DNA of 64,000 nt from positions 27,711,232 through 27,775,231 of the forward strand of contig NC_072794.1 in assembly GCF_028583425.1 (NCBI RefSeq), in the 5' to 3' direction. Below, piece after piece: positions 42,321-64,000 of the stretch. The position numbers were made by a program, and so were the translations under genes. The stretch's first letter is position 1. The number at the start of each line of letters is the position of its first letter. This DNA comes from Eublepharis macularius. Lineage: Eukaryota; Chordata; Lepidosauria; Squamata; Eublepharidae. The notes under the pieces were generated by a model. The model was not told the origin of the DNA and did no database searches. It worked only from the letters and a program-made list of their open reading frames with translations.

Positions 42321-42339
42321 TGCCCAGTTTTTAAAGGGA

Positions 42340-43135
42340 CAGGGTAAAAGCCGGAATGAGACGGAACAGGCCAGAACGGGCACTAAAGAAATGCCAGTGC
42401 CACAAAAAAGAGGGGGATGTGTTAGAGACACTCCAGAACAATATTTTAGAAATGAAAGCTCTGGACTGGCACCCTTTTATTAACCCATTCCATGCCAAAA
42501 AGCTCCCGGAACAGCACAAAACAGCCCGGAATGGGCACTAAAGAAATGCCAGTGCCACAAAAAACAGTGGGATGTGTTAGAGACACTCCAGAACAATATT
42601 TTAGAAATGAAAACTCTGGACTGGCACACTTTTATTAACCCGTTCCATGCCAAAAAGCTCCCGGAACAGCACAAAACAGCCCGGAACGGGCACTAAAGAA
42701 ACGCCAGTGCTACAAAAAACAGTGGGATGTGTTAGAGACACTCCAGAACAATATTTTAGAAATGAAAACTCTGGACTGGCACACTTTTATTAACCCGTTC
42801 CATGCCATAAAGCTCCCGGAACAGCACAAAACAGCCCGGAACGGGCACTAAAGAAATGCCAGTGCCACAAAAAACAGTGGGATGTGTTAAAGAACAATAT
42901 TTTAGAAATGAAAACTCTGGACTGCCCCGCTTTTATTAACCTGTTCCATGCCAAAAAGCTCCCGGAACAGCACAAAACAGCCAGGAACGGGCACTAAAGA
43001 AATGCCAGTGCTAAAAAAACAGTGGGATGTGTTAGAGACACTCCAGAACAATATTTTAGAAATCAAAACTCTGGACTGGCACACTTTTATTAACCCGTTC
43101 CATGCCAAAACGCTCCCGGAACAGCACAAAACAGC
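42340..43135. repeat. Minisatellite, about five 155-bp units
   Basis: The landmark gccagtgc recurs near 42393, 42548, 42703, 42858 and 43004 (spacings 155, 155, 155, 146). Units share ggatgtgttagagacactcc, gaacaatattttagaaatga and ggcacacttttattaacc; the fourth unit has lost part of the first of these. Each unit holds complementary CCCGTTCC and GGAACGGG near its ends. Because 155 is not a multiple of 3, the frames shift between units, so it is not a protein repeat. Confidence 0.93.
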
Positions 43136-43139
43136 ACTA

Positions 43140-43256
43140 AAGGCGGGGCAGGGGGCGTCGGGGGGAGCGGCGCAGCCGCGGCCCCCGGGGGCCCGGCTGT
43201 CTTCGTCTTCGTCTTCGTCTGGGGATGGGGATGGGGATGGGGATGGGGATGGGGAA
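43140..43256. repeat. GC-rich patch, (CTTCGT)n and (GGGGAT)n
   Basis: A GC-rich stretch at 43140-43198, then about three CTTCGT units (43200-43219), then about six GGGGAT units (43221-43255) with G-quadruplex potential. It directly follows the minisatellite. Confidence 0.9.
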
Positions 43257-43677
43257 TTTTATTTTTGGCAACCTCTTCTACATGCAAAACTTTTTTGGTA
43301 CAAAGTTGTAATGTTATAAAATGGTAAAAATTTCATAAAATTGTAATTTTACTAACAATCCAACTCAAATAAGTTTATAGATAATTCAAACAGTATTGCT
43401 TCTATAATCATATTAGGCATAAATATTAAACATAACTTTTAAACATTAACTAAAAAGTATTAAATACTCGGTAGAGATGGGTTGAAGGTTTTATCTTAAA
43501 TCCTGAGCAGCTTGAAACCTTCAAGTGAGAACTGAAAACACGTTTCTCTGTTTTAGAGAAACTGCTTTTCAGTACAAAATAAACGGGATGTATGTTTTTG
43601 TTGCACTCTCCCAGCCAGGAGACAGACTCCTCCTAAGAGTTTAATGGCTTCTTTCATTAACAAACGCTAGTCGTTTT

Positions 43678-43788
43678 GGTTGTTGGGGGTTTTCCGGGCT
43701 GTATTGCCGTGGTCTTGGGAAGACCACGGCAATACAGCCCGGAAAACCCCCAACAACCATCGTTCTCCGGCCGTGAAAGCCTTCGACA
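43678..43788. mobile_element. Short hairpin Penelope-like insertion
   Basis: ggttgttgggggttttccgg ... ccgtggtcttg and its reverse complement face each other with almost no loop, followed by the unpaired tail atcgttctccggccgtgaaa gcc. Flanked by the 12-bp duplication GCTAGTCGTTTT (43666-43677, 43789-43800). The hammerhead region present in the 50156 copy is missing. Confidence 0.75.
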
Positions 43789-43800
43789 GCTAGTCGTTTT

Positions 43801-44198
43801 CATTACGTGAGGTATCAAAATATAAATGTTTATTTAAATAAAACATAGAAAAATAGAACAGATGAACACAACAAGAATTAAGTTTCCTAACATTTCTTAA
43901 TGAAATCTAACTCAGTCAGATTAACGATGAAATGCATTCAAGTTACCGTAGCACATATTACAAGGGTAAGTTTCCTGCCTAGATCTTCATGAGATTTCTT
44001 TTGGCCAAAACCCTGATCTGCTATTTGGATTACCATTTTTATATATTATCTTATGCAGAAATCTAAGATCTTTTCATATGGTAACAAAGATAAATATCAA
44101 ACCAATCATAATTTAATTCTTTTTTACTATTTCCAATCATGTGACATTCTACCTAGCCAAAAGTACCACTATGCCCAGCTGCAAGATAAGAGATATGG
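43801..44198. other. Left shoulder of the palindrome, nothing recognised
   Basis: AT-rich. It may or may not have a partner to the right, because the right arm leaves the window at 64000. Confidence 0.4.
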
Positions 44199-44394
44199 AT
44201 AGTAAAAATGACAAGAAAAGTTACATGACCAGATCATCCTTGGTCTCTGCTAACAATTACAGAACATGTATCTGATACTGTTCACTATTTTTAATTGACT
44301 GTCAAAGATAAAGCACCAGTTATACACCATACTAGAAAAACAACTACAGTGATGTTCATACAGCGTTATTTAGAATGCATATGTTTCACGAAGT

Positions 44395-44600
44395 ATGTGT
44401 TCTAAACCATAATCAGCAGTCTACTGGTTTGAATCCCACTACTGACATGAGCTCAGTAGGTGGCCTTGGGTCAGCCACTCCTCTCAGCCCCAGCTCCATT
44501 GTGGGGATAAGAATAACACTAACTTGTTCACTGCTCTGGGTGAGGCACTAATATGTGTCGAAGAGCGGTATATAAGCACAGTTATTATTATTATTTATAT
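44395..44600 (+). mobile_element. tRNA-derived CORE-type SINE (left-arm copy)
   Basis: Box B-like (tggtttgaatcccac), core (ggtggccttgggtcagccac), tail (gaagagcggtatataagcac) with a TTA repeat. Its mirror copy in the right arm is at 63600-63785, so it predates the duplication. Confidence 0.85.
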
Positions 44601-45369
44601 TTCCATGACACCATCCCTTGACCTGTGAAATTAAGTATTTTGATAAATATGAAAGTGATACAAAATATAAATGCATTGCATAATGTGTGAGTGTACATAT
44701 ACAAACTTTAAAAATTGTATTGGATAATACCGCAAAGCATGATTACTGAGAAAGCTGCTTTCACTGCTTTCAGTGTGGAGAGCTGCTTGTAGATCAAAAC
44801 AACCTGACGAGCTGTCTTCATGCAGAGTACACTTGATTCTCTTGGCTTTCAATTCTGCTTTCGTTCAGCATGGGTAAATCAATGTGTCAGCAGTAAACAT
44901 TTGTATCAGTCCTCTCTGAATGACCTTTTAAATTTTACTGCCTATCGTGTCAAAGCAATTAAAATTAACTGCTAAGCTGCTAAGATCAATTAATGGCTCT
45001 TAGGCTTTATCTATTGATCTAGTGACATCTTCAAAACCCACTGGTAACAGACTATACATACTTCTCTTCTATCCACAATATATACACAAGGATTGATTAC
45101 ATATTCTTATCTTCTAAATTACATATTTAAATGACATATTCTTATCTCCTAAATTAATTAGTCAAACTCTTACATCAAGGATTGGTGACAAGTTGTGGAC
45201 AGACTATGCTTGGACAGAATATACACTGAGAATAAATGACATCAAACAAATTGGAAACTAAATAAATCACTTTTATTTAACAAATAAATTTCTTCTGAAG
45301 TCTCTTTAGAAATTAAACAATAGAAACAATGTGGCATTCCTCAAATCCACGTGTAGGATGCTATGGAAG

Positions 45370-46365
45370 TGGTACTTAGAGGGAAATTAATCTCCGTTGC
45401 CTCCTGTCATGAAGAGCAAAAAGAAAACATTAGAAATGAAATGATATCTAGAATAAGAAAACTAGAAGATGAACACAAAAAGGCCACCCAATCTATAAAC
45501 TTGCTTGCATGAAAATTAGAGGAAAAAACCTCCTCACATTCTATACAAGCTATTAAAGGCACCCAGGAAAAACTCAAACTAATTCTGTAAAATTAGCCGA
45601 TGTATTTGCTGAATACTACCAAACCATTTGTACATCAGACAATCCTGACACTAATCATATTTTAAATTATTTATCATCACAGGAAATTTGGAAAAAACCT
45701 CACAAGAACATAAACAATATCTGGACCAACCAGTCACAACAGAAGATGTTACAGTCACTATCAAATCCTTGAAAAAAATAACAAAGCTTCAGACAGGGAT
45801 GGATTCCCTGCCAAATTTTTACAAAAAAATACATTCACCTAATTTCAACTCCACTAACTGCCACATGCAACTCTGTTATGTTAGGAGGTAGCATCCCTCT
45901 ATCTTGGTCAGAGGCTGAAATGGTAGTTACTCCAAAAAAGGACAACCATATTACAAATACTAAATCTTCTCAACCAATACCCTTACTGAATCAAGACCAA
46001 AAGATCTTTACAAGCATATTTGCCAAAACATTGTCTAAATTTAAATAACCAACTACATTCACCTTGACCAGACAATACACGTAACACTTTAACTATAATT
46101 AATTTCTGTGAAGCATACAAAACCCCTGCATTACTTCTGGCCTTTGATATAGAGAAGGCATTTGATTAAGTGGAAATACCATATCTGAAACTTTTACTTC
46201 AAAAAATGGGTTTTGGCGACCAATTCTAAAATGCCATTAATGATCTTTATCTTTCTCCAAAAGCTACAGTTAGGACTAACAATGTACATTCAATAGATAT
46301 CCATATAGCAAGGGGAACTAGACAAGGCTGTCCCCTTTCCCCATTTCTGTTTGCCATAACTATAG
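45370..46365 (+). mobile_element. L1 LINE ORF2 fragment (left arm)
   Basis: Translated pieces in several frames: GKLISVASCHEEQKENIRNE-type linker, then FDIEKAFD-VEIPYLKLLLQ (RT block), KATVRTNNVHSIDI and RGTRQGCPLSPFLFAI (the catalytic-region blocks of L1). Frameshifted and cut off at about 46365 by unrelated sequence. The 45579-45596 segment is the uninterrupted version of the target of the right-arm hairpin at 62482. Confidence 0.85.
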
Positions 46366-46539
46366 ACAGGGCCAATGCTACCATTAGACCAACTAGGCCG
46401 CCGCCTTGGGCACAGACCTCAAGAGGGGCATAGTTTTAAACAGATTACTTTCTTGAAAAAAATGCAACTGAGAAAACCTATTGAGCACCCCCTAAATGGT
46501 CCTGTCCACAGACATCAAGCAGCTCAAAAGCTCACCGTA

Positions 46540-46541
46540 AC

Positions 46542-46572
<31 letters not shown>

Positions 46573-49122
46573 TTTGATGTATACCCTGCCCTCCTCACAG
46601 ATGGGCTAAGGGTGGCTAACAACATTAAAAAATACATTAAAATCACAGAAACATAAAAATAAATCATATTTTTTTAAAAATAATTAAAATAGTCCAGGAG
46701 CAGGCTATTTAAACAAATATTGGGAGTCCGTATACAGGCATGGCAGATGGCTGAGGGCAGCTCCGGAAGAAATGGTGGTCTTAGATGGAAGAAGAAGGAC
46801 ACTCGCTGGCACTCAGCCAAAGGCCCAGCAGAACATTTCCATTTTACAAGCCCTGCAAAACTGTAACAGGGCCCACAGGGCCCAGATCTCCAGCGGGAGA
46901 GCATTCCACCAGGCCAGGGCCAGGGCAGAAAAAGCCCTCGCCCTGGTTGAGGCCAGATGGATGTCCTTTGGGCCAGGGACCACCAGGAGTTGCTTGTCTG
47001 CAGAGCGCAACACCCTGCAGGGGACGTAATGGAAGAGGCGGTCCCGCAGGTATGGAGGTCCCAGTCCATGAAGGGCTTTAAATACCAAGGTTAATACCTT
47101 GAACCAGATCTGGAACTCCACTGGAACCCAGTGCAGCTGGCACAGCACATGATGAATGTGCGCTTGGATGGGCGTTCCGGTAAGGATGCGTGCCGCTGCA
47201 TTCTGGATCAGCTGTAACTTCCGGGTCAGACCCAAGGGCAGTCCAGGATAGAGTGAGTTGCAATAGTCTAGCCTGGAGGTGACCGTTGCATGGATTACTG
47301 TGGCCAGGTCCTGTGGTGAAAGATAGGGCGCCAGTTGCCTGCCCTGTCGAAGATGAAAAATGGCAGACCTGGCAACAGTCATGACCTGGGCCTCCATTGA
47401 AAGTGTAGCATCCAAGGTCACACCCAGACTCCTCACCATCAGGAAAGGTTTCAATTGTACCCCATCAACAGCTGGGAGCCGGTTCCCAGCTCTATTGCCC
47501 CATGATCCAGACACAGAACCTCTGTCTTCAGGGGATTCAATTTCAGGCGACTCTGATGTAACCATCCCGTCACAGCCTCAAGACCCTTGACCAAGGAATC
47601 CAAAGCAAGATCGGACTGGCCATCTGTAATGATTCCAAGTAAATGTGTGCATGTATCTTTAAATGCTTGATGAGATAGGTGAAGAGTGGGGGGTGAAGGA
47701 GATGGATGAGTGAGTGATATGTGTCAGGCTATGGCATTCCAGACTTGATAGTCTGTTTCACTCCCTTCTGCAAGAAGACGAGGTCTTTTGATTTCAAAAG
47801 GTTTATTGTGAAAGACAGCATTCAAGCCCAGATGTGCATATCCCAGGATTAGAGATCCTGGCCGAGCAAAGCGTTGCTAGGAATGAATCATAGAGCAAAG
47901 GTTGTTACATTTCACACTCCCGGAGCCCAGCCCCCCCCCCCCCCCCGAGTTCATACAGCAAAACTTCTCAGAGGTGCGCTGAGCTGGCCAAGGTCGAAAC
48001 AGCAGATAAGACAGGATCCTTTCCCATGGAATCGGCTCCTTGCAGGTGTTGCCTGGAGGGAAAGAAGTCTAAACACTACACGATTAAATATGGCGTTACT
48101 TAGGTTAAAACAGTTTCTGACAATATGATTGGTTGAGGACTGAGAGGGTGGGTGGAGTGAATGCAGTTTGACACTGAGAGTAGAGAGAAAATTTTTAGTC
48201 AGAAGAAAGCAGGCTCGCTGTGTGCTGCCTGAATATGTTGAAGTGTTTATGAGAGAAATATAACCTGTGTGGAACCTGAACTGAGCATGTTTGTGAAAGG
48301 ACACTCAGTCAGGGAAAGAGAGGCCAGCTGTGTGAATGAGAGTAAATGAAGTCACTTTAAGAACCGAGAACTACGTTTATGAAACCAATACGCTTCTCGA
48401 ATAAATAAAAGCTTATTTTTGTTTTCTATATCCCAGTGTAGCTGTCATTGTTATATCCCATTCCTATCTTCAGGGCCACATAGAACCACGAAGGAGCCTG
48501 ATGCTTAGGAACGTTACCAAAGGGAAAATTTAAATAAAATATCTTGGAATAAAATATTCCGGGTGGCAGCAGACTACCCAGAGGGTTAAGGGATAGCTTA
48601 AAAGAAAAATCTACCCTAAAGAAAGTAAAGGTCATAACACCATCCATTAGCAGATAGAGCTGAGTGTCATCCGCATACCAGTGACAACCTAGCCCAAAGC
48701 TGCGGGCTAACGGGGCAAGGGGGCACATATAGATGTTAAATAGCATCGGGGAAAGAATCGACCCCTGAGGGATGCCACATACCAAAGAATGGTAAGCAGA
48801 CATCTCTTCCCCGAGTGCCACCCTCTGTCCTAGATTGTGAAGGAAGGAGTTCAGCCATTGCAGGGCTGTTCCTCGAATCCCCACATCGGCAAGGCAATGG
48901 GTCAGAAGATTATGATTGACCATGTCAAATGCTGCTGTAAGATCTAAAAGTATCAGCAGTGCCGACCCACTCCGGTCCAGGTGTCGCCGCAGATCATCTG
49001 TGAGGGCAACCAGAGCCGTCTCTGTACCATGGCCAGGCCTGAAGCTGGACTGGAATGGATCCAGGATAGAGGCATCACCCAGGTATACCTGCAGCTGTTC
49101 CGCTACTGCCCTCTCAATTACT
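46540..49122 (-). mobile_element. L2 LINE (left arm), 5' part deleted
   Basis: 3' end at the TTTA repeat (46540-46575). The open C-terminal part is at 46813-47565 (SRLDYCNSLYPGLPLGLTRK; HWVPVEFQIWFKVLTLVFKA). The RT part is at 48645-49122 (NHNLLTHCLADVGIRGTALQ; YADDTQLYLL catalytic box; CGIPQGSILSPMLFN). A solo LTR splits it. It ends abruptly at 49122 where the right-arm copy continues, so about 2 kb was lost here. Confidence 0.9.
47625..48639 (-). mobile_element. Solo LTR inside the L2 (left arm)
   Basis: Fossil LTR of about 1.0 kb, with TG...CA ends (TGTTATGA/TCATTACA) in the minus orientation and the 5-bp target duplication CCATC on both sides (47620-47624, 48640-48644). No internal region. 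Family not identified. The same LTR sits at the same L2 position in the right arm, so it predates the duplication. Confidence 0.85.
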
Positions 49123-49333
49123 CAAAGTTATCTCAGAAGTCTCAGTCAACTTGAGAGGAACAATCCTTAGTGAAACTACTCCTTTTTAGCTCTCCAGAGA
49201 GGCAGCTAAAAAGAAGAAAGCAAACAAATTAAGTAACTGCAGACAAAAGTATCTCCTTTTCAAGTACAACACAATTCTCTCTCTCATTGTCTCACAGCAA
49301 ACATGAGAAGGGGGTGGGAGTAGAAGACACTCT

Positions 49334-49535
49334 GAGCCAAGCCACAAGTGACGCCTGACACAGGTTGGACACTTGTCAGCTTCCCTCAAGTTTTGATGGG
49401 AAATGTAGGCATCCTGTTCTTGCAGCTGTAATGGAGAGCCAAGCTGTAAAACCAGGATGCCTACATTTCCCATCAAAACTTGAGCTAAGCTGACAAGTGT
49501 CCAACCTGTGTCAGGCGTCACTTGTGGCTTGGCTC
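49334..49535. repeat. Palindromic MITE private to the left arm
   Basis: Arms starting GAGCCAAGCCACAAGTGACG run about 85 bp with high symmetry (shared block gggaaatgtaggcatcctg), around a short centre. The corresponding right-arm site (about 56745) is uninterrupted, giving a 3-5-bp target duplication (TCT or CTCTG). Inserted after the duplication. Confidence 0.85.
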
Positions 49536-50209
49536 TCTGTTGTGCCAGCCAGGAAAAAGGTGGGGAAATAGCTTCCAATGCTACAAAAAGAAACTTTTCA
49601 GCAACTTGAGGAAGCCAAGCAAGAAGTGAGAAGGAAAACAAAAGGGAAAAGGGGGGAAACTGCCTCCAGAGCTAAGAAAAAAACCCACTTCTTAGAGCAA
49701 ACTGTATCCCAGCAACACCAAGAGAAGAGGCAGAGTGGAAAACACTAAAATCTTCACAGCTATTCTGCTGTGTCTGGAAAGAAATGGGCAGAAAGTCAGC
49801 TTCATGGCTGCAATAAAAGGGAGGAAAGTAGGGAAATTCTGCTGTAGCAATGCGCAGAGCATACTTGCTGCAGAGGAACAAGTGCAGGGAAAAATACCTC
49901 TGCACTAGAACCTACAACTATATAGCCAAGCTTTTAAGGTTTCCTCAAAATCTGAAAATCCTTTAAAGAGTTATGATGACCTCGTCCAATCCTTAAGGCC
50001 ACTTTTGGTAGGTGCTCGAGAGGGAAAACTGGTCAAGACCAATCTGTCATCTAAAGCTTGGTTTGATCAGAGCTGTATTTGTGCTAAAAATGCTTTAATC
50101 TATGCCTATAAGCCAGCACTGAGAGCTGATGAAAAGACCAGACAAGATGCATATCGATGGTTGTTGTGGGTTTTCCGGGCTGTATTGCCGTGGTCTTGGC
50201 ATTGTAGTT

Positions 50210-50250
50210 CCTGACGTTTCGCCAGCAGCTGTGGCTGGCATCTTCAGAGG
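50210..50250 (-). ncRNA. Hammerhead-ribozyme motif, minus strand
   Basis: Exact reverse complement of the motif at 50336-50376: CTGAAGA at 50247-50241, GAAA, stem III AC/GT, predicted cleavage next to C50213. See the + strand entry for the fold. Confidence 0.65.
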
Positions 50251-50335
50251 TGTAGCACCAAAAGATAGAGATCTCTCAGTGTCACAGTGACACTGTCACT
50301 GTGACACTGAGAGATCTCTATCTTTTGGTGCTACA

Positions 50336-50376
50336 CCTCTGAAGATGCCAGCCACAGCTGCTGGCGAAACGTCAGG
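50336..50376 (+). ncRNA. Hammerhead-ribozyme motif, plus strand
   Basis: Stem I CCT/AGG (50336-50338 with 50374-50376). Core CTGAAGA 50339-50345. One extra T (50346). Stem II GCCAGC/GCTGGC (50347-50352 with 50360-50365). GAA 50366-50368, stem III AC/GT (50369-50372), H17 = C50373. The layout is that of Penelope-like hammerheads, whose two-base-pair stem III is thought to favour dimeric cleavage. Confidence 0.7.
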
Positions 50377-52979
50377 AACTACAATGCCAAGACCACGGCA
50401 ATACAGCCCGGAAAACCCACAACAACCATCGTTCTCCGGCCGTGAAAGCCTTCGACAATACAAGATGCATATCATTCTTTCATTTTTAAAAAAGAAGTAT
50501 AAATCACTGGTTGCCCACTGTAAGAAAGAACATACCAGAAAACTGTGGGCCAATATAACTGAAGCAGCTACGAGCAAAAACTCAGTGGTGTTCTGGAAAC
50601 TAGTGTCAAACCGCGCCTCCACAGCCGCCTCCCCCTTGGCTTCCGCTATCCCCCCCAGATAAATGGACTTCTTTTTTCCAAAAAATGTATGATGATCCTA
50701 TTCAACCTCCTCCTGCTCTAACAATAGAAAATCTGGCCAAATGCCCCCCAGTTCATGCCGAAGAGGTAAAAGCTTATATTAGCCAGTTAAAGAATGCAAA
50801 AGCCCCTGGGCTTGATGGAATATCTCCAGAATTATTAAAAACAAATAAGGACTGGTGGGCAACTTTCCTAGCCTCCCCATTTACTTATATTGATGAAACC
50901 GGCTACATCCCCAATGACTGGGGAATGGCTATAGTAGTCCCCTTCCATAAGAAGGGAAAGAAGGAGGATCCATCCAATTATACACCAATCAGCTTACTAA
51001 GCATTGTAAGCAAGTTGTCTACAAAACATCTGCTGGAGAAATTTTTAGACTGGCTAGAACAGGAGGAAATAATTGCTGATGAGCAAGCTGGGTTTAGAGC
51101 TGGCAGGTCAACAATAGATCACTGCCTAGTAATGCAACACCTTGTAGAGAAATACGCTACAGGAGACCAAGCATCACTTTACTGGGCATTTGTTGATTTA
51201 AAAGCAGCTTTTGACACAGTCTCTAGAAATAGACTTTGGAGGAAACTGCAGGCCTCCTCTATTGATAGGCGACTGCTGTCCCTTTTGGGGGCTATGCACA
51301 AGCAAACTGCCCTGAGTAAGGTGCAGCCGAATTGGGCATTTGACTGACCCCATTCAAACTTACAGGCAGGTGTGCCTTCTAGCCCCCTTTCTGTTTATCT
51401 TCTACATCAACAATTTGGTAAACCTTTTGAATGACCCTGGATTGCACCCTCCCAAATTAGCAAATAGGCACATTCACATACTGCTCTATGCAGACGATGC
51501 TGTATTACTTTCTAGGACCCCCATAGCGCTGAAACGAGCCCTAAAAAAATTCTCCCAATTCTGTGATACTGAACACCTTCTAACTAATTACCAAAAAACT
51601 AAGATCCTGGCTTTCGGTAAAAATCCAAAGATCAGACGATGGGAGCTTCAGGGGCATCAGTTAGAACAAGTTACCAGCTTCAAATATTTGGGTGTAGTTT
51701 TGCAAGCCTCAGGTACCAAAACAACACATAGCAGCTTCATTGCTGATGTGGGAGAAAAAACAGCACACAGTATACTGAAATTCTATCGATCACAAGGGGG
51801 GCAGTATGTACCGGCTGCACTCAGTTTGTTTAAAGCCAAACCATTGGCCCAATTAGTATACGGATCATTCTTGGGGCTGCCATCCTCCTCTTTCTCTCAA
51901 CTTGAGAGAGTGCAGTCCAAATTCCTTAGAGCTCTATTACAAGTGCCCAAATGCATGCCTAACTCATGGGTTAGACTGGAAACAGGAATGTTAAGGGTAG
52001 AGGCCAGAATCACCATCCTTTCAATTTTCAAATGGCTATCAGGGTGTCTAAACCCGCAAGGTCTGCTCCCTCTGTTATTCCAAGACAATCTAATTGGCAA
52101 AAGGCGACTCTGAAATCCCTGGGAAAATTGGGTCTTTCCCCTCAAAGTTTGCTAGTCATGGGGTTAGACCCAGCAAAATCACTCATTAAGCAGAGAGTGA
52201 CAGACATTGAAAGACAAACATTTTCTTAGAGCACCAGGTTTTATTTCTTCAGATACTACTAAATATATTGCCGCTCCTGCAGCCTATTTTTACTTTCTTG
52301 AATCCAGTAACTCCAGAAGGGCATTTGCTTTAGCTAGAAGTTCAACTCTACCCTCTGCCGTTCTGGAAGGAAAGTTTAAAGCTGTCCATTACTCTCTTAG
52401 GCTTTGCTCCTATCCCCTAAGAGAAACTGACTCAGTGGAGCACATCTTCTTCAACTGCCCAAGTCATAGTAAAATTAGAGCGGAAACCATCAGTCCATTA
52501 GTAGAAAGATTCCCTGGAAGTTCAAATAAAATCAAACTTGATTATCTTTTGTCTGATCGGAATCACCAGACACCATGTCAAGTAGCAAGATTCTGTGCCC
52601 AGGTCTACAAGCAACGTAAATCACATAAGGCAGCTTAAACAACTAATTTATGATGATCTTATTTTTTTCCTCTTATATTTATTCATCGTTCTTCCCCGGT
52701 ATCCAGTCTCAACTGCTGTTAAACTGATTTGCAAATGGTTTTATATGTACTGGTCACAGATTGTAATAATAAACTTGACTTGACTACCTCTGCACTAAGA
52801 ACAGCAGAAATACCTGAACCTACTTCATGGGGTGAATTATCCTAGCTACCACCAGAAGAAGCTGAGAAATGGAGAAAAGCGGAGGGTGTGGTGTCGGTGT
52901 TGAAGAGAATGATAGCACTTTGAAAGAGCTCCGTCTCTCCCATGCCTGAAATTTAAAATTTATGTTGAAAGGGTAAAGT

Positions 52980-53130
52980 AAAAATATTTACCCTTCCAAC
53001 GTAAAGATACGCTAAGAGATCCGAAAGGCAGATTCATATTTATTAAAGGCACTATAGAAAACCAAACTTACACATTTGGCTCAATTTATGCCCCAAACCA
53101 AGACAGCCTAATGAAATTCTAAAACAAAGT
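52980..53130 (+). mobile_element. L1 LINE endonuclease fragment (left arm)
   Basis: Translates to RDPKGRFIFIKGTIENQTYT followed by FGSIYAPNQDS, the L1 ORF2 endonuclease block containing the IYAPN motif. Its mirrored copy is at 54035-54180. Confidence 0.75.
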
Positions 53131-53225
53131 TCATTAGAATACACATGTATCACTTAGTATAATTTGCTCTAAACCATATTTTCATGACAAACCCACAGAA
53201 ACAGCAGCAACATAATCTAAGAGTA

Positions 53226-53934
53226 TTTATTTGATGTATACCCTAGGTGGGTTGGCATCAATTGTCAGGTAGTATCTATGTGGGGTATAATTCTGCATAG
53301 GCCAGCCTAAGAAGCCTCCATGTTTCGGAGAATGTTAAAACCTGTCATTTGGAGATCAGTTGTAATTTGTGGGGATCTCCAGGAGGGTTGACAACCACAG
53401 TGTCATCAAGCCAGGCGGCCTTAGCATGGACCTGCATGCTGCCAGAACTGCCACTGTCTCCCAAAGAACCCCAGGAGCAGCGAAGGCTGAGGGTAAGGGC
53501 AGAGTCATGGACCAAGCACAGGAGCGCATGCCTGGCAGCCCACGGCCTTCCCCCTGCTGAGGAAATGTCAGGAGAGCCAGTAGAGGATCTGATCTACTCC
53601 TCCTGAGTAGCAGAGATGAGCCAGCTTGGAGAAAGAAGCTTAATGAACCCAGCCTCACCTGTAGGAGAAACTCCCTTTATAAGGCCGCAGCTAGCATGGG
53701 ATTAGCTAGTCAGAATTGTGGCATTCTGGACTTAGCTGTTGGTGAGCTCTTAGGCTCTGGCTGCCTGAGCCTTGGTGGGTCACAGTCTTTGATTCTGGAA
53801 TCTGTTACTTGACCATGGAGTTTGACCTGAGAATCTTTGTTGTTGGCCCTGTTGTCGTCAGAACTTGCCTCCAACCTAGTGAGCAGGATATTTTTAATTC
53901 CTTCTGTTTCTATTTGTTGCTCTTCATTATACTC
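53226..53934. other. Spacer of the palindrome
   Basis: Non-repeated sequence of about 709 bases between the arms. The left edge carries tatttatttgatgtataccc, also found at the 3' end of the L2 copies (46560). It has GC-richer central sequence with open frames on both strands (53349-53658) but no recognisable protein. 53330-53395 resembles a scrap of the 28253 DNA transposon. Confidence 0.55.
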
Positions 53935-54034
53935 TTAGATTATGTTGCTGCTGTTTCTGTGGGTTTGTCATGAAAATATGGTTTAGAGCAAATTATGCTA
54001 AGTGATACATGTGTATTCTAATGAACTTTGTTTT

Positions 54035-54180
54035 AGAATTTCATTAGGCTGTCTTGGTTTGGGGCATAAATTGAGCCAAATGTGTAAGTTTGGTTTTCTA
54101 TAGTGCCTTTAATAAATATGAATCTGCCTTTCGGATCTCTTAGTGTATTTTTATGTTGGAAGGGTAAATATTTTTACTTT
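54035..54180 (-). mobile_element. L1 LINE endonuclease fragment (right arm)
   Basis: Mirror copy of 52980-53130. Confidence 0.75.
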
Positions 54181-54370
54181 ACCCTTTCAACATAAATTTT
54201 AAATTTCCGGCATGGGAGAGATGGAGCTCTTTCAATCTGCTATCATTCTCTTCAACACCGACACCACACCCTCCGCTTTTCTCCATTTCTCAGCTTCTTC
54301 TGGTGGTAGCTAGGATATTTCACCCCATGAAGTAGGTTCAGGTATTTCTGCTGTTCTTAGTGCAGAGGTA

Positions 54371-56640
54371 GTCAAGTCAAGTTTATTATTACAGTCTGCG
54401 ACCAGTACATATAAAACCATTTGCAAATCAGTTTAAAAACAGTTGAGACTGGATACTGGGGAAGAACGATGAATAAATATAAGAGTAATAAAATAAGATC
54501 ATCATAATTTAGTTGTTTAAGCTGCCTTATGTGATTTATGTTGCTTGTAGACCTGGGCACAGAATCTTGCTACTTGACATGGTATCTGGTGATTCCGATC
54601 AGACAAAAGATAATCAAGTTTGATTTTATTTGAACTTCCAGGGAATCTTTCTACTAATGGACTGATGGTTTCCGCTCTAATTTTACTATGACTTGGGCAG
54701 TTGAAGAAGATGTGCTCCACTGAGTCAGTTTCTCTTAGGGGATAGGAGCAAAGCCTAAGAGAGTAATGGACAGCTTTAAACTTTCCTTCCAGAACAGCAG
54801 AGGGTAGAGTTGAACTTCTAGCTAAAGCAAATGCCCTTCTGGAGTTACTGGATTCAAGAAAGTAAAAATAGGCTGCAGGAGCGGCAATATATTTAGTAGT
54901 ATCTGAAGAAATAAAACCTGGTGCTCTAAGAAAATGTTTGTCTTTCAATGTCTGTCACTCTCTGCTTAATGAGTGATTTTTCTCGGTCTAACTCCATGAC
55001 TAGCAAACTTTGAGGGGAATGACCCAATTTTCCCAGGGATTTCAGAGTTGCCTTTTGCCAATTAGATTGAAATTTGTTTTGGAATAACAGAGGGAGCAGA
55101 CGTTGCGGGTTTAGACACTCTGACAGCCATTTGAAAATTGAAAGGATGGTGATTCTGGCCTCTACCCTTAACATTCCTGTTTCCAGTCTAACCCATGAGT
55201 TAGGCATGCATTTGGGCACTTGTAATAGAGCTCTAAGGAATTTGGACTGCACTCTCTCAAGTTGAGAGAAAGAGGAGGATGGCAGCCCCAAGAATGATCC
55301 GTATACTAATTGGGCCAATGGTTTGGCTTTAAACAATCTGAACGCAGCCGGTACATACTGCCCCCCTTGTGATCGATAGAATTTCAGTATACCGTGTGCT
55401 GTTTTTTCTCCCACATCAGCAATGAAGCTGCTATGTGTTGTTTTGGTACCTGAGGCTTGCAAAACTACACCCAAATATTTGAAGCTGGTAACTTGTTCTA
55501 ACTGATGCCCCTGAAGCTCCCATCGTCTGATCTTTGGATTTTTACCAAAAGCCAGGATCTCAGTTTTTTGGTAATTAGTTAGAAGGTGTTCAGTATCAGA
55601 GAATTGGGAGATTTTTTTTAGGGCTCATTTCAGCCCAATGGGGGTCCTAGAAAGTAATACAGCATCGTCTGCATAGAGCAGTATGTGAATGTGCCTATTT
55701 GCTAATTTGGGAGGATGCACTCCAGGGGCATTCAAAAGGTTTACCAAATTGTTGATGTAGAAGATAAACAGAAAGGGGGCTAGAAGGCACACCTGCCTGT
55801 AAGTTTGAATGGGGTCAGTCAAATGCCCAATTCGGCTGCACCTTACTCAAGGCAGTTTGCTTGTGCATAGCCCCCCAAAGGGACAGCAGTCGCCTATCAA
55901 TAGAGGAGGCCTGCAGTTTCCTCCAAAGTCTATTTCTAGAGACTGTGTCAAAAGCTGCTTTTAAATCAACAAATGCCCAGTAAAGTGATGCTTGGTTTCC
56001 TGTAGCGTATTTCTCTACAAGGTGTTGCATTACTAGGCAGTGATCTATTGTTGACCTGCCAGCTCTAAACCCAGCTTGCTCATCAGCAATTATTTCCTCC
56101 TGTTCTAGCCAGTCTAAAAATTTCTTCAGCAGATGTTTCGTAGACAACTTGCTTACAATGCTTAGTAAGCTGATTGGTGTATAATTGGATGGATCCTCCT
56201 TCTTTCCCTTCTTATCGAAGGGGACTACTATAGCCATTCCCCAGTCATTGGGGATGTAGCCGGTTTCATCAATATAAGTAAATGGGGAGGCTAGGAAAGT
56301 TGCCCACCAGTCCTTATTTGTTTTTAGTAATTCTGGAGATATTCCATCAAGCCCAGGGGCTTTTGCATTCTTTAACCGGCTAATATAAGCTTTTACTTCT
56401 TCGGCATGAACTGGGGGGCATTTGGCCAGATTTTCTATTGTTAGGGCAGGAGGGGGTTGAATAGGATCATCATACATTTTTTGGAAAAAAGAAGTCCATT
56501 TATCTGGGGGGGATAGAGGAAGCCAAGGGGGAGGCGGCTGTGGAGGCGCGGTTTGACACTAGTTTCCAGAACACCACTGAGTTTTTGCTCGTAGCTGCTT
56601 CAATTATATTGGCCTACAGTTTTCTGGTCTGTTCTTTCCC
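54371..56640 (-). mobile_element. Non-LTR retrotransposon (LINE), right-arm copy
   Basis: Mirror of 49908-52784. The 143-codon C-terminal part (54948-54517) differs from the left copy at 2 residues and the 220-codon RT part (56477-55815) at 5. The 3' target-duplication copy is near 54358-54370. The 5' part, with the other duplication copy, was removed by a deletion whose edge is at about 56640. Confidence 0.88.
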
Positions 56641-57655
56641 TTTTGTTTTCCTTCTCACTTGTTGCTTGGCTTCCTCAAGTTGCTGAAAAGTTTCTTTTTG
56701 TAGCATTGGAAGCTATTTCCCCACCTTTTTCTTGGCTGGCACAACAGACTGTCTTCTACTCCCACCCCCATCTCATGTTTGCTGTGAGACAATGAGAGAG
56801 AGAATTATGTTGTACTTGAAAAGGAGATACTTTTGTCTGCAGTTACTTTGCTTTCTTCTTTTTAGCTGGCTCTCTGGAGCGCTAAAAAGGAGTAGTTTCA
56901 GTAAGGATTGTTCCTCTCAAGTTGACTGAGACTTCTGAGATAATTTTGAATCTCCTAGACTATTTTGAGATGCAGCAATGACTGGCAGTATTATCTGAAA
57001 GCAGGATGATATAACTCATAAGGTTTGCCTTTTTTGAGAGTTAATGATCTCATATTGCCTATCCAAAGCCATACCATACTGCTGTTATTCAAAGAACAAT
57101 ATACACGAATCGCTAGCATCTTTTTCACCTTAATAATTACTTCAACTGGTCCACTTTGTTGGGGGAGAATGTTAAAAAATAGCTTTTCTTCAGAGGTGCA
57201 ATGGATCTTGAATCAATAGAGAGTCAGCACACGAGTTTAGCTTTTAAAATCATTTACTTCTAAAGGAAGAAAGGTTAACAGGATTGCCTACAAAATAACA
57301 AATGCCTGGAGCTACATTTTCACTACTAGTTACAAACAAAGAGCTGGGATAACTGAATGGAGAATCTTCTTCTTCCTCTGTCTTCTTGACCCTGAAAGAA
57401 AATCACCTGACCTGTTGACCAATAACAGTTTACAAACACTCAAGTTTTCTGGGCTTGCAGATTATTGGCTTTGAGCCGGTTCCCCTTCCAGGTCAATCTA
57501 AACAATAGCATGGTAGGTAAACACATTAACCCCATAATGAGTGAATCTCAGACCTTGCAACACACATATATTCCAACACATTTATGGTACAGGTTTCTCA
57601 TATTTGTTTTACATATTGGGAAATGTCTTGTTGAGGTAGTGGTGCTCATTCGAGT
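56641..57655. other. Right-arm sequence without recognised genes
   Basis: 56641-56948 mirrors 49125-49640 without the MITE. 56949-57655 has no partner in the left arm and no feature I can name. Confidence 0.5.
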
Positions 57656-60600
57656 CTTTCTCCATCAAGCTGCTCCCTTTGCCAAAGATTGCTGGCATTG
57701 ATTGTGTGGGCCTGGTGTGGGATGCCGAGGAGAGTATAGCCATCTGTCTGGTGTACCGATTGCCCAGTGCACCAGCAGATGCTGTGCCTGGCCTGTTAGA
57801 GGCGGTGGCTGGCTGGGCCTTGGAGTACCCCAGGCTTCTGGTCTTAGGGGACATCAGTGTCCATGCCGATGATGCTACCTCCTCACAGGCCATGGACATG
57901 ATAGCCTCCATGGCAGCATTAGGACTCTCCCACTTTGTATCAATGCCCACACATCGAGCAGGACACACACAGGATTTGATCTTTGGGTTCGGGATACAGG
58001 TGGATCTGGATGAAGCTATAGCAGTGCCATGGTCAGACCACCTCATCCTGAGGGCTTGTCTGGGCACCATGACCCCCTCCTGCTTGGGCGATGAGCTGAT
58101 TTATGCTCACCCGTGGAGTCAAATGGATCCAATTGAATTGCAGAACGCTCTGTAGGATCCGATGCCCCCTGGTGGCTCATTGGATGAGCTGATAGAGGAC
58201 TGGAATGTCCGTTTCTCTGAAGCTATTGATGAGATCGCTCTCTCCGCCCTCGAACTAGAGTAGCTCCTTGGTATACTGATGAGCTACGACAAATCAAATG
58301 GGAGCTGAGACGGCTAGAGCGAGTGTGGCGGCGACTCCATGATGAAGTGACAAGAACATCTTATAGGACGTTTATGAAGGCCTATGAGATGGCACTGAAA
58401 GCTGCAGAGACTACTATGCAGCTTCCACTGCGTCCACTAGTTCTCTCCCAGCACAACTTTCCAGAGTGATTTGGTCTTTAACGTCCCTCACACATGGGAC
58501 AAATAAAAATGTAAATTCGGTAATAAGCTGTGAGGCTTTTGGAGACTATTTTGCAGATAATATCTTGTCACTCCGCCAGGATCTGTCCACCACAGTTGAT
58601 GCAGTTGATGCAGTATGTGTACTGGAGGCCCCTTGGTCGTCCTCAGGGTTGACATTAGATCAATTCAGGCCACTCTCCCAGGAGGAGGTGGGCAGGGTCC
58701 TTCATGCTGTGAAACCTACCACGTGCCCACTGGACCCATGCCCATCATGGCTGGTGAAAAGCGGTGGTGATGGGATTTGGGCACCATTAGCTGACATCAT
58801 TAATTTTTCTCTGAGTTCTGGGTTTTTTCCAGACTCACTGAAAGAGGCAGTGGTGTGGTCCTTATTAAAGAAACCATCACTGGATCCTGCTGATCCAGCC
58901 AATTATCACCCAGTTTCGAATATTCCATTCCTCGGTAAGGTAATTGAGAGGGCGGTAGCGGAACAGCTGCAGGTATACCTGGGTGATGCCTCTATCCTGG
59001 ATCTATTCCAGTCCAGCTTCAGGCCTGGCCATGGTACAGAGACGGTTCTGGTTGCCCTCACAGATGATCTGTGGCGACACCTGGACCGGAGTGGGTCGGC
59101 ACTGCTGATTCTTTTAGATCTTACAGCAGCATTTGACATGGTCAGTCATAATCTTCTGACCCATTCCCTTGCCAATGTGGGGATTCGTGGAACAGCCCTG
59201 CAGTGGCTGAACTCCTTCCTTCACAATCTAGGACAGAGAGTGGCACTCAGGGAACAGATGTCTGCTTACCATTCTTTGGTATGTGGCATCCGTCAGGGGG
59301 CGATTCTTTCCCCGATGCTATTTAACATCTATATGTGCCCCCTTGCCCGGTTAGCCCGCAGCTTTGGGCTAGGTTGTCACCAGTATACGGATGACACTCA
59401 GCTCTATCTGCTGATGGATGGTGTTATGACCTTTACTTTCTTTAGGGTAGATTTTTCTTTTAATCTATCCCTTAACTCTCTGGGTAGTCTGCTGCCACCA
59501 GGAATATTTTATTCCAAGATATTTTATTTAAATTTTCCCTTTGGTAACGTTCCTAAGCGTCAGGCTCCTTCATGGTTCTATGTGGCCCTGAAGATAGGAA
59601 TGGGATATAGCAATGACAGCTACACTGGGATATAGCAAAACAAAAATAAACTTTTATTTAGTCGAGAAGCGTATCGGTTTCATAAACGTAGTTCTCGGTT
59701 CTTAAAGTTACTTCATTTACTCTCATTCACACAGCTGGCCTCTCTTTCCCTGACTGAGTGTCCTTTCACAAACATGCTCAGTTCAGGTTCTCTCATAAAC
59801 ACTTCAACATATTCAGGCAGCACACAGCTAGCCTCCTTTCTTCTGACTAAAAATTTTCTCTCTACTCTCAGTCTCAAACTGCATTCACTCCACCCACCCT
59901 CTCAGTCCTCAACCAATCATATTGTCAGAAACTGTTTTAACCTAAGTAACACCATATTTAATCGTGTAGTGTTTAGACTTCTTTCCCTCCAGGCAATACC
60001 TGCAAGGAGCCGATTCCATGGGAAAGGATCCTGTCTTATCTGCTGTTTCGACCTTGGCCAGCTCAGCACACCTCTGAGAAGTTTTTCTGTATGAACTTGG
60101 GGGGGGGGGGAGGCTGGACTCCGGGAGTGTGAAATGTAACAACCTTTACTCTATGATTCATTCCTAGCAACCCTTTGCTCGGCCAGGATCTCTAATCCTG
60201 GAATATGCACATCTGGGGTTGAATGCTGTCTTTCACAATAAACCTTTCGAAATCAAAAGACCGCGTCTTCTTGCAGAAGGGAGTGAAACAGACTATCAAG
60301 TCTGGAATGCCATAGCCTGAAACATATCACTCACTCATCCATCTCCTTCACCCCCCCACTTTTCACCTATCTCATCAAGCATTTAAAGATACATGCACAC
60401 ATTTACTTGGAATCATTACAGATGGCCAGTCCGATCTTGCTTTGGATTCCTTGGTCAAGGGTCTTGAGGCTGTGACGGTATGGTTACATCAGAGTCGCCT
60501 GAAATTGAATCCCCTGAAGACAGAGGTTTTGTGTCTGGATCATGGGGCAATCGAGCTGGGAACCGGCTCCCAGCCATTGATGGGGTACAATTGAAACCTT

Positions 60601-61490
60601 CCCTGATGGTGAGGAGTCTGGGTGTGACCTTGGATGCTACACTTTCAATGGAGGCCCAGGTCATGACTGTTGCCAGGTCTGCCTTTTTCCATCTTCGACA
60701 GGGCAGGCAACTGGCGCCCTATCTTTCACCACAGGACCTGGCCACAGTAATCCATGCAACGGTCACCTCCAGGCTAGACTACTGCAACTCACTCTATCCT
60801 GGACTGCCCTTGGGCCTGACCTGGAAGTTACAGCTGATCCAGAATGCAGTGGCACGCATCCTTACCAGAACGCCCATCCAAGCGCACATTCATCATGTGC
60901 TGTGCCAGCTGCACTGGCTTCCAGTGGAGTTCCAGATCCGGTTCAAGGTGTTAACCTTGGTATTTAAAGCCCTTCATGGACTGGGACCTCCATACCTGTG
61001 GGACTGCCTCTTCCATTATGTCCCCTGCAGGGTGTTGTGCTTTGCAGACAAGCAACTCCTGGTGGTCCCTGGCCCAAAGGACATCCATCTGGCCTCTACC
61101 AGGGTGAGTGCTTTTTCTGCCCTGGCCCTGGCCTGGTGGAATGCTCTCCTGCTGGAGATCTGGACCCTGTGGGACCTGTTACAGTTTTGCAGGGCTTGTA
61201 AAATGGAGATGTTCTGCTGGGCCTTTGGCTGAGTGCCAGCGAGTGTCCTTCTTCTTCCATCTAAGACCACCATTTCTTCCGGAGCTGCCCTCAGCCATCT
61301 GCCATGCCTGTATACAGACTCCCAATATTTTTTTAAATAGCCTGCTCCTCGGCTATTTTAATCATTTTAAAAAATATATTATTGATTTTATGTTTCTGTG
61401 ATTTTAATGTATTTTTAATGTTGTTAGCCACCCTTAGCCCATCTGTGGGGAGGGCAGGGTATACATTAAATAAATAAATAAAGTTACGGT
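57656..61490 (+). mobile_element. L2 LINE (right arm), most complete copy
   Basis: APE endonuclease C-terminal half (57679-58120: VLGDISVHADD, SMPTHRAGHTQDLIFGF, VPWSDHLIL). Then linker, then RT (58870-59415: NYHPVSNIPFLGKVIERAVA, FRPGHGTETVLVAL, LLDLTAAFDMVSHNLL, CGIRQGAILSPMLFNIY, then YTDD where the catalytic YADD is expected). C-terminal part 60480-61232. The 3' end at 61470-61490 has an AAAT tail. Interrupted by a solo LTR (59422-60420). The start and N-terminal half of the endonuclease are absent. Confidence 0.92.
59422..60420 (+). mobile_element. Solo LTR inside the L2 (right arm)
   Basis: Fossil LTR, 999 bp, ends TGTTATGA...TCATTACA, 5-bp target duplication GATGG (59417-59421, 60421-60425). 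The L2 frame resumes directly after it. Mirror of 47625-48639. Family unknown; only an LTR remains. Confidence 0.88.
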
Positions 61491-61659
61491 GAGCTTTTGA
61501 GCTGCTTCATGTCTGTGGACAGGGCCATTTAGGGGGTGCTCAATAGGTTTTCTCAGTTGCATTTTTTTCAAGAAAGTAATCTGTATAAAACTATGCCCCT
61601 CTTGAGGTCTGTGCCCAAGGCGGCTGCCTAGTTGGTCTAATGGTAGCATTGGCCCTGTC

Positions 61660-62830
61660 TATAGTTATGGCAAACAGAAATGGGGAAAGGGGACAGCCTT
61701 GTCTAGTTCCCCTTGCTATATGGATATCTATCGAATGTACATTGTTAGTCCTAACTGTAGCTTTTGGAGAAAGATAAAGAGCATTAATGGCATTTTAGAA
61801 TTGGTCACCAAAACCCATTTTTTGAAGTACAAGTTTTAGATATGGTATTTCCACTTAATCAAATGCCTTCTCTATATCAAAGGCCAGAAGTAATGCAGGG
61901 GTTTTGTATGCTTCACAGAAATTAATTATAGTTAAAGTGTTACGTGTATTGTCAAAAAGATTCCTTATTGGCATAAAGCCAGTCTGGTCAAGGTGAATGT
62001 AGTTGGTTATTTAAATTTAGACAATCTTTTGGAAAAAAATATGCTTTTAAAGATCTTTTGGTCTTGATTCAGTAAGGGTATTGGTTGAGAAGATTTAGTA
62101 TTTGTAATATCGTTGTCCTTTTTTGGAGTAACTACTATTTCAGCCTCTGACCAAGATAGAGGGATGCTACCTCCTATCATAACAGAGTTGCATGTGGCAT
62201 TTAGTGGAGTTGAAAGTAGGTGAATGTATTTTTTTGTAAAAATTTGGCAGGGAATTCATCCCTGTCTGAAGCTTTATTATTTTTTTCAAGGATTTTATAG
62301 TGACTGTAACATCTTCTGTTGTGATTGGTTGGTCCAGATATTGTTTATGTTCTTATGAGTTGTTTTCCAAATAATTTCCTGTGATGATAAATAATTTAAA
62401 ATATGATTAGTGTCAGGATTGTCTGATGTACAAATGGTTTGATAGTATTCAGAAAAGAAATTGGCTAATTTTACAGAATTATGGTTGTTGTGGGTTTTCC
62501 GGGCTGTATTGCCGTGGTCTTGCCAAGACCACGGCAATACAGCCCGGAAAACCCACAACAACCATCGTTCTCCGGCCGTGAAAGCCTTCGACTTTACAGA
62601 ATTAGTTTGAGTTTTTCCTGGGTGCCTTTAATAGCTTGTATAGAATGTGAGGAGGTTTTTTCCTTTAATTTTCAAGCAAGTAAGTTTATACATTGGGCAG
62701 CCTTTTTTGTGTTCATCTTCTAGTTTTCTTATTCTAGATATAATTTCATTTCTAATGTTTTCTTTTTGCTCTTCATGACAGGAGGCAATGGAGATTAATT
62801 TCCCTCTAAGTACCACTTCCATAGCATCCT
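61660..62830 (-). mobile_element. L1 LINE ORF2 fragment (right arm)
   Basis: Mirror of 45370-46365 with the same L1 RT and linker blocks (e.g. MEVVLRGKLISIASCHEEQK at 62822). A hairpin element interrupts it at 62482-62592. Confidence 0.85.
62482..62592. mobile_element. Short hairpin Penelope-like insertion, private to right arm
   Basis: Arms tggttgttgtgggttttccg ... gtggtcttg and complement with almost no loop, then the tail atcgttctccggccgtgaaa gcc. 12-bp duplication TTTACAGAATTA (62470-62481, 62593-62604). The left arm has the empty site at 45579-45596. Confidence 0.88.
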
Positions 62831-63599
62831 ACACGTGGATTTGAGGAATGCCACATAGTTTATTTGTTTCTATTGTTTAATTTCTAAAGACTTCAGAAGA
62901 AATTTTTGTTAAGTAAAAGTGATTTATTTAGTTTCCAATTTGTTTGATGTCCATTATTCTCAGTGTACATTCTGTCCAAGCATAGTCTGTCCACAACTTG
63001 TCACAAATCCTTGATGTAAAGAGTTTGACTAATTAATTTAGGAGATAAGAATATGTCATTTAAATATGTAATTTAGAAGATAAGAATATGTAATCAATCC
63101 TTGTGTATATATTGTGGATAGAAGAGAAGTATGTATAGTCTGTTACCAGTGGGCTTTGAAGATGTCACTAGATCAATAAATAAAGCCTAAAGGCCATTAA
63201 TTGATCTTAACAGCTTAGTAACTGTATTGTTAATTTAAATTGCTTTGACACGATAGGCAGTAAAATTTAAAAGGTCATTCAGAGAGGAGTGATACAAATG
63301 TTTACTGCTGACACATTGATGTACCCATGCTGAACGAAAGCAGAATTGAAAGCCAAGAGAATCAAGTGCACTCTGCATGAAGACAGCTCGCCAGGTTGTT
63401 TTGATCTACAAGCAGCTCTCCGCACTGAAAGCAGTGAAAGCAGCTTTCTCAGTAATCATACTTTGCGATATTATCCAATACAATTTTTAAAGTTTGTATA
63501 TGTACACTCACACATTATGCAATGCATTTATATTTTGTATCACTTTCATATTTATCAAAATACTTAATTTCACAGGTCAAGGGATGGCATCTTGGAAAT

Positions 63600-63785
63600 A
63601 TAAATAATAATAATAACTGTGCTTATATATCACTCTTCTACACATATTAGTGCCTCACCCAGAGCAGTGAACAAATTAGTGTTATTCTTATCCCCACAAT
63701 GGAGCTGGGGCTGAGAGGAGTGCCTGACCCAAGGCCACCTACTGAGCTCATGTCAGTAGTGGGATTCAAACCAGTAGACTCCTGA
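63600..63785 (-). mobile_element. tRNA-derived CORE-type SINE (right-arm copy)
   Basis: Mirror of 44395-44600, starting at an AAT repeat and ending in the gtgggattcaaaccagta box-B side. Confidence 0.85.
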
Positions 63786-64000
63786 TTATGGTTTAGAACA
63801 CATACTTAGTGAAACATATGCATTCTAAATAACGCTGTATGAACTTCACTGTAGTTCTTTTTCTAGTATGGTGTATAACTGGTGCTTCTTTATCTTTGAC
63901 AGCCAATTAAAAATAGTGAACAGTATCAGATAAATGTTCTGTAATTGTTAGCAGAGACCAAGGATGATCTGGTCATGTAACTTTTCCTGTCATTTTTACT

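Follow-up and report, generated by a model that had tools for sequence, protein, structure and literature searches.

A 25.9-kb palindrome in the Eublepharis macularius genome that looks like one insertion of a dispersed foldback-type DNA transposon family

How two inverted multi-kilobase copies of the same sequence come to lie side by side is the question raised by a stretch of the Eublepharis macularius genome (assembly GCF_028583425.1, contig NC_072794.1; hereafter the window, 64,000 nucleotides, G000:C5:27711232-27775231), in which a sequence-only reading had noticed a giant imperfect palindrome and had taken it for a unit duplicated as a block at this locus. We aligned the window against itself together with 40 kb of further sequence (ext denotes window numbering continued past position 64000) and searched the genome (2.24 Gb, 72 contigs) for its parts. 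Taken together, the observations below indicate that the palindrome very probably belongs to a dispersed and apparently non-autonomous family of giant foldback-type DNA transposons, the arms of which seem to be kept alike by break repair templated on the opposite arm or on an arm from elsewhere in the family.

Limits and structure of the palindrome

In the extended sequence the whole palindrome runs from 42336 to ext 68266 (25.9 kb), with a left arm of 10.9 kb and a right arm of 14.3 kb; long terminal inverted repeats (TIRs) constitute most of the element, as is required of the foldback type. Both ends carry matching outer termini (GGGACAGGGTAAAAGCYGGAAYRAGACGG), the common terminus (GGGACAGGGTAAAAGCCGGAAYGAGACGG) lying at 42336 (+) and at ext 68266 (-) with a difference at one base, and the bases directly outside both termini read GTTTTTAAA, an exact 9-bp target-site duplication (TSD). 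Because of these matching termini and the exact 9-bp TSD, the palindrome looks, as far as its sequence goes, like a single insertion of a foldback-type DNA transposon. Its main parts are as follows:

42327..42335, no strand: left copy of the 9-bp TSD, GTTTTTAAA (right copy at ext 68267-68275, 4.3 kb beyond the window)
42336..42364, + strand: left outer terminus, GGGACAGGGTAAAAGCCGGAATGAGACGG (its inverted partner, which differs at one base, reaches ext 68266)
42365..43135, + strand: outer array of the left arm, made of five tandem units of 155 bp (ext 67768-68251 being its counterpart in the right arm)
42336..53226, + strand: left arm, of young-subfamily type (10.9 kb)
53227..53242, + strand: 16-bp filler at the palindrome centre, inside a 21-bp match to the tail of a long interspersed element (LINE) at 46567
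53243..53928, - strand: inner domain, colinear with the right arm at 39 other scored places in the genome
53929..64000 and on to ext 68266, - strand: right arm, of older-subfamily type (from self-BLAST, the extended sequence and the arm tree)

Within the window, self-BLAST paired the left (L) and right (R) arms in inverted orientation as L44201-45591 with R64000-62593, L45580-49121 with R62481-58940, L49122-49334 with R56949-56745, L49536-49649 with R56748-56635, and L50524-53226 with R56638-53929, while the outer 155-bp tandem array at 42333-43135 pairs with ext 67768-68269. The arms of at least 9-10 kb that had been read from the sequence are thereby borne out and lengthened, and the self-alignment of the extended locus, which the same reading had proposed as a check, finds them inverted from 42336 to ext 68266. 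The left end had been placed at 44199, a limit set by the window edge (base 64000 pairs with 44201) and not by the arm, whose true end is 42336. The spacer of about 0.7 kb is likewise present (53227-53928, 702 bp); the arms on its two sides, by contrast, are not colinear throughout, since about 2.0 kb (56950-58939) is found in the right arm only and about 0.87 kb (49650-50523) in the left arm only, and the arms further differ by insertions private to one of them and by a large tandem-repeat expansion on the right. This expansion (ext 64881-67768, G000:C5:27776112-27778999) holds approximately 20 units of a 67-bp GC-rich repeat, 214 TGTCTT units and 17 7-bp units, as compared to about one 67-bp unit and some hexamers in the left-arm counterpart; we considered the extra 2.9-kb stretch as an insertion and rejected this in favor of repeat expansion. 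Tandem repeats inside the arms (the 155-bp array, and the 67-bp, 7-bp and 6-bp arrays of the right arm) are a further foldback characteristic.

The two arms differ by 225 substitutions in 7892 aligned columns (2.85%), close to the roughly six differences in 260 bases that had been counted by hand. The longest identical run between them is 212 against an expected 206, and no conversion tract between the window's own arms is visible, the substitutions fitting a Poisson distribution (index of dispersion 1.03, P 0.36, 2000 permutations). Outer and inner arm segments do differ (158/4878 vs 67/3014 substitutions, P 0.008), in a comparison that was chosen after looking at the data. At the centre, the 16-bp filler was probably templated during end-joining repair, to judge from its position within the 21-bp match to the LINE tail. 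A further inner part, which in several copies carries tandem units of about 195 bp, is absent from the window copy. In the copies that we label C5b, C6 and C12 (L017-L020, L027, L028), the tandem repeat of about 195 bp follows the inner domain, the units of C6 being arranged as an inverted array about 4 kb long.

Dispersed copies and their target-site duplications

A 35-bp terminus pattern (<=3 mismatches) gave 195 forward and 200 reverse matches in the genome (395 altogether), as compared to 0 + 0 for the same pattern read backwards. The exact-class patterns, split by the preceding base, gave 121 + 58 + 31 = 210 termini (controls 0), 189 of which were listed and form the basis of the pairing counts. 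Among these, neighboring termini within 60 kb of each other formed 30 inward-facing pairs, 0 outward-facing and 13 same-strand ones, whereas random placement yielded a mean of 0.36 inward pairs (max 3 in 500 trials). The inward pairs range in size from 0.6 to 38 kb (median 22.6 kb).

The flanks of all 30 loci were then compared, using the outermost terminus found at each. A 9-bp TSD was exact at 21 loci, carried one mismatch at 3 and was missing at 6; none of the 30 had an exact TSD at 7, 8, 10 or 11 bp, and the duplicated 9-mers have no fixed base in common. When the flanks of different loci were crossed, 0/870 pairs agreed with <=1 mismatch and 5/870 with 2 (this set supersedes an earlier control of 342 cross-pairs, 3 with <=1 mismatch and the lowest at 0, which had mixed in second ends of the same loci). 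Copy C7, for example, has ATATTTCAA on both sides, again an exact 9-bp TSD. Matching termini accompanied by TSDs thus recur at many sites, as is expected of a mobile element.

The centre of the palindrome leads to the same family. A 1.2-kb query across it gave 104 genome matches, and 40 of 918 first-look candidates were scored, 39 of them being places besides the window. At all 39 a single colinear piece covers both the spacer and the inner right arm (97-98%, from window position 53243), therefore spacer and right arm together form a dispersed unit. Eight other copies were read over 20 kb around each, with some outer pieces added, and in several of them one or both outer ends were not reached; in C2a the arms measure about 11.5 kb. 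The smallest two-ended copy seen (L090, G000:C9:67788861-67789603) is a mini copy of 621 bp that consists mostly of termini and 155-bp units and has an exact TSD.

Shared insertions, subfamilies and signs of copying between arms

Both arms contain a common stack of retroelements, in agreement with the multi-layer stack of the sequence-only reading: an L2-like LINE that holds a long terminal repeat (LTR)-like element, a second LINE with a 13-bp TSD, and a piece resembling a short interspersed element (SINE). The names L1, L2 and SINE are ones that we presume to apply, only the reverse transcriptase domain (RVT_1) having been tested. The stack is listed below in left-arm coordinates, with its presence among the eight other copies:

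44400..44600, + strand: SINE-like piece (presumed name), in both arms and 6/8 other copies
46542..49121, - strand: L2-like LINE (presumed name; left limit approximate), with a reverse transcriptase frame at 48426-49121 (RVT_1); 6/8 other copies
47625..48639, - strand: LTR-like insertion within the L2-like LINE, with TG...CA ends and the 5-bp TSD GATGG (right arm 59422-60420); 6/8 other copies
49908..52784, + strand: second LINE, with the 13-bp TSD TACCTCTGCACTA (49895, 52785) and reverse transcriptase frames at 50604-52113; both arms and 8/8 other copies

At 49121 the L2-like LINE is truncated by the deletion of about 2 kb that typifies the young subfamily. Among the ten open reading frames scanned, five match RVT_1 and five match nothing (two of the latter lie outside the element), and no host gene was seen in the eight arm frames, of which five match only RVT_1 and three nothing (no gene prediction was run). 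Since a retroelement lands in a single arm only, the mirrored stack must stem from an earlier event in which one arm served as the source for the other. Other insertions are confined to one arm:

43678..43788, no strand: hairpin insertion, left arm only, with the TSD GCTAGTCGTTTT at 43666 and 43789; site empty in both the right arm and the 6 other copies covering it
49335..49535, no strand: palindromic insertion resembling a miniature inverted-repeat transposable element, left arm only; site empty in the right arm, and the insertion not found in the 8 other copies
50155..50459, no strand: hairpin insertion, left arm only, with the TSD ACAAGATGCATAT (50142, 50460)
62482..62592, no strand: hairpin insertion, right arm only, with the TSD TTTACAGAATTA (62470, 62593); site empty in both the left arm and the 6 other copies covering it

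The tree and distances of 12 arms show that the two arms of the window copy are not each other's closest relatives in this sample, as arms duplicated at the locus should be. The left arm falls in a young burst and is 1.3-1.6% apart from C9, C2a, C2b, C7 and C5c (as compared to 2.9% from its own right arm), and the right arm is placed apart from this burst with C12, a pair that C5b and C6 join next (support 97-100). An independent marker agrees with this tree, namely the following 2-kb segment:

56950..58939, + strand: older-subfamily segment, found in the right arm, complete in C12 and partial in C6 and C5b; absent from the left arm, C2a, C2b, C7, C9 and C5c

Substitutions that occur in one row of the alignment only are more frequent in the right arm (116/7896 columns) than in the left (38/7935), and in segment E, which all twelve rows cover whole or in large part, they number 22 vs 8 of 2703. 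This excess is partly due to coverage, because C12, C5b and C6 are without some of the segments, and could shrink further if other relatives of the right arm were sampled. We consider that the window copy is probably an older insertion, in which the sequence of a young-subfamily copy replaced the left arm and was connected to the older right arm via the 16-bp templated filler.

Other copies also bear signs of copying between arms. The arms of C2a are 99.94% identical over 9.0 kb and those of C2b 99.97% over 9.9 kb (98.8% and 99.9%, respectively, with more of the outer arrays included), while the two loci are about 1.3% apart. Furthermore, at 10/30 loci the element is accompanied by an inverted copy of its own flank (the 20 bases outside one terminus being the reverse complement of the other side with <=1 mismatch). 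In five of them the extent was measured, giving 235 bp (96% identity), 1149 bp (99.5%), 671 bp (99.85%), between 3.6 and 10 kb (100%) and about 10.4 kb (100%), the two longest on the basis of samples along their length; the six pieces that make up the 235-, 1149- and 671-bp inverted flanks contain no N. Four of the ten loci have a further terminus outside, with the TSD at the outer one, so that the inverted flank lies inside the element; this outer TSD is exact at C5:101.7 (GATATTTTA) and C4:127.0 (AGTTTTTAC) and has one mismatch each at C4:108.2 and C3:89.0. The 0.6-kb mini copy adds an 11-bp piece of inverted left flank beside an internal terminus (0/2000 shuffles), which brings the total to 11/30 loci with an inverted own-flank copy, at 5 of which it is inside the element. 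The simplest account of these flanks would be repair synthesis that runs outward along the opposite arm, in some cases beyond the terminus, and then joins the remnant of the broken arm. The proneness to deletion and to arm-to-arm copying that had been foreseen for such a structure therefore has its counterpart in other members of the family, where signs of both are found. A 35-kb element with inverted flanks was also observed at G000:C8:102160412-102210470; at a distance of 6541 bases outside each of its termini there are inner domains that belong to another family member, in mirror orientation.

Candidate mechanism, rival explanations and known systems

With respect to superfamily, a TSD of about 9 bp, exact at 21/30 loci, is the one expected in Mutator/Foldback, and this TSD together with the foldback build makes an affinity to Mutator/Foldback likely. 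The P superfamily (Galileo, 7-bp TSD) was rejected, since an exact TSD of 7 or 8 bp is found at none of the loci and one of 9 bp at 21/30. The Merlin superfamily has TSDs of 8-9 bp, and its IS1595-type transposase domain gave 0 genome matches at E <= 0.001. In the mechanism that we propose, a transposase of the Mutator/Foldback kind, supplied in trans, would recognize the termini and move the whole palindrome, which after insertion may break near its centre or within the arms. The opposite arm, or an arm belonging to another copy, would then serve as the template for restoring the broken one, and an overshoot past the terminus would leave an inverted piece of the opposite flank. Such repair would keep the arms alike and also yield deletions and chimeras; moreover, it would spread an insertion from one arm to both, which would explain the shared stack.

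Several observations weigh against this account. No transposase could be linked to the family: the genome has 17 places with a Mutator-like element (MULE) domain, none of them inside a listed pair, and the closest lies 43.6 kb from a listed terminus (189/210 exact-class termini listed). Near-identical arms are not universal, since those of the window are 2.85% apart, two stretches of C5c are 97.6% and 98.9% identical, and the outer part of C7 with its arrays 98.2%. The stack is incomplete in C6 (without the LTR-like element and most of the first LINE, through a deletion) and in C5b (without the LTR-like element, the first LINE and the SINE-like piece); the reading of C12 begins within an arm, and only eight other copies were read at length. 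The right arm may look older only because its close relatives are unsampled; the best identity to its inner part is 98% among the 39 other places scored. Lastly, assembly errors could account in some measure for the two loci with perfect inverted flanks and for the arms of 99.9% identity, because palindromes of this kind are longer than many reads.

A local origin, in which a unique block with its stack of transposable elements was copied inverted beside itself by fold-back or template-switch repair, would account for inverted arms around a short unduplicated spacer, and the 702 bp of the latter come close to the 766-70,466 bp of the 21 sequenced human fold-back junctions (PMC3907307). We nevertheless hold it to be very improbable, as the same palindromic unit is found at many genomic places, both arms terminate in transposon ends that are flanked by a 9-bp TSD and, among the arms sampled, those of the window are not sisters but belong to different clades; the block duplication proposed from the sequence alone is given up on these grounds. 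It is improbable, too, that two family elements inserted head to head, or that an ectopic exchange between two produced a chimera resembling one insertion. The window arms do come from different subfamilies, and Galileo chimeras that join divergent TIRs are described in Drosophila (PMC3573991); these are reported there without matching TSDs, whereas the outer flanks of the window copy share an exact one. Inward-facing pairs are moreover the rule in the family (30 vs 0 outward, among the 189 listed termini), and gene conversion of one arm accounts for both the subfamily mix and the TSD.

An assembly artefact, through chimeric reads of the fold-back type or a false path in the assembly graph, would produce just such perfect inverted flanks of about 4-10 kb as are seen at two loci, and arms that are 99.9% identical are difficult to assemble. 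As an explanation of the whole it is extremely improbable: the window arms are 2.85% apart and bear private insertions with TSDs, the window flanks differ from each other yet share the TSD, and two of the measured inverted flanks are clearly diverged (96% and 99.5%). Less improbable, although we still think it unlikely, is the possibility that each transposition regenerates a perfect palindrome from one arm via a filled-in hairpin intermediate, without repair in place. The arms of C2a and C2b, near-identical within each copy while the copies differ, are what it would predict; the inverted flanks buried in TSD-bounded elements, however, need copying at the present site after insertion, and the window copy has non-sister arms. 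Returning to repair in place, we regard the chances as evenly balanced that it makes of this family a self-healing palindromic transposon, i.e. a vertebrate Mutator/Foldback-like family whose arms act as mutual repair templates, spread insertions to both sides and occasionally copy host flank into or beside the element, so that it carries a fossil stack and seeds inverted duplications in its host.

Among known systems, Tetris, a Drosophila Foldback element (PMC4079207), is similar in its long inverted arms, its internal tandem repeats (about 220 bp, as compared to 155 bp here), its middle without evident coding capacity, the lack of an autonomous copy among those found, its smaller relatives that share the ends, and its TSDs of 8-10 bp (9 bp here); on similar grounds (TSD length and foldback build) it was assigned to Mutator/Foldback. 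It differs in scale, with TIRs that reach 1,735 bp and three structurally complete copies, whereas the present family has arms of >10 kb with a fossil retroelement stack, 30 two-ended loci and a vertebrate host. Galileo of the P superfamily (PMC3573991) likewise has variable, internally repeated TIRs, non-autonomous copies of two TIRs, subfamilies and chimeras with divergent TIRs, and is set apart by TIRs of up to about 1.26 kb, a 7-bp TSD and chimeras without matching TSDs, in contrast to the exact TSD kept by the window chimera. In Mutator-like elements (PMC6446971) a 9-bp TSD occurs in several groups, and Rehavkus has a minisatellite adjoining a TIR; unlike these, the window family has no MULE transposase linked to it. 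The same survey doubts reports of MULEs in vertebrates and gives their absence there as an open question, on which the present family would bear if its mover were Mutator-like.

Sex-chromosome palindromes (PMC3723533) share the large inverted arms and arm-to-arm gene conversion, and two copies here reach their identity of >99.9%; they occupy one chromosome region, whereas the present elements are mobile and dispersed, with no host gene in the frames scanned. Pack-TIRs formed by gap filling or fork switching (PMC8277862) are comparable in that repair synthesis in TIR elements brings in other sequence, while the sequence captured here derives, in inverted form, from the element's own flank, which is what the opposite arm would yield as template. 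The human fold-back inverted duplications (PMC3907307) resemble the window in their inverted copies and short unduplicated spacer, and differ in being immobile and without transposon termini or TSD. Among the titles and abstract openings listed by searches of open-licence literature, no vertebrate foldback family of such size was found.

Although instability is to be expected of palindromes of >20 kb, this dispersed family has just such a build and some of its copies look recent. In their arm divergence, buried flanks and TSDs, dozens of independent sites record how palindromes were repaired, and the breaking and healing of long palindromes in the vertebrate germline become testable by comparing copies and individuals. 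For genome projects, such loci mimic segmental duplications and assembly errors.

The three hairpin insertions (43666-43800, 50142-50472 and 62470-62604 with their TSDs) have a common tail (CATCGTTCTCCGGCCGTGAAAGCCTTCGAC) and TSDs of 12-13 bp, each being private to one arm; we take them to resemble minimal Penelope-like elements, the middle one presumably with a hammerhead-like core. Against Rfam, the hairpin at 50155-50459 gave only matches below the gathering score, mostly to microRNA families, which are taken to be a by-product of its self-complementarity. The sole Rfam match over the gathering score in the window is a tRNA-Ala (tgc)-like sequence at 39244-39317, and two identical tandem copies of 250 bp lie at 11893-12395.

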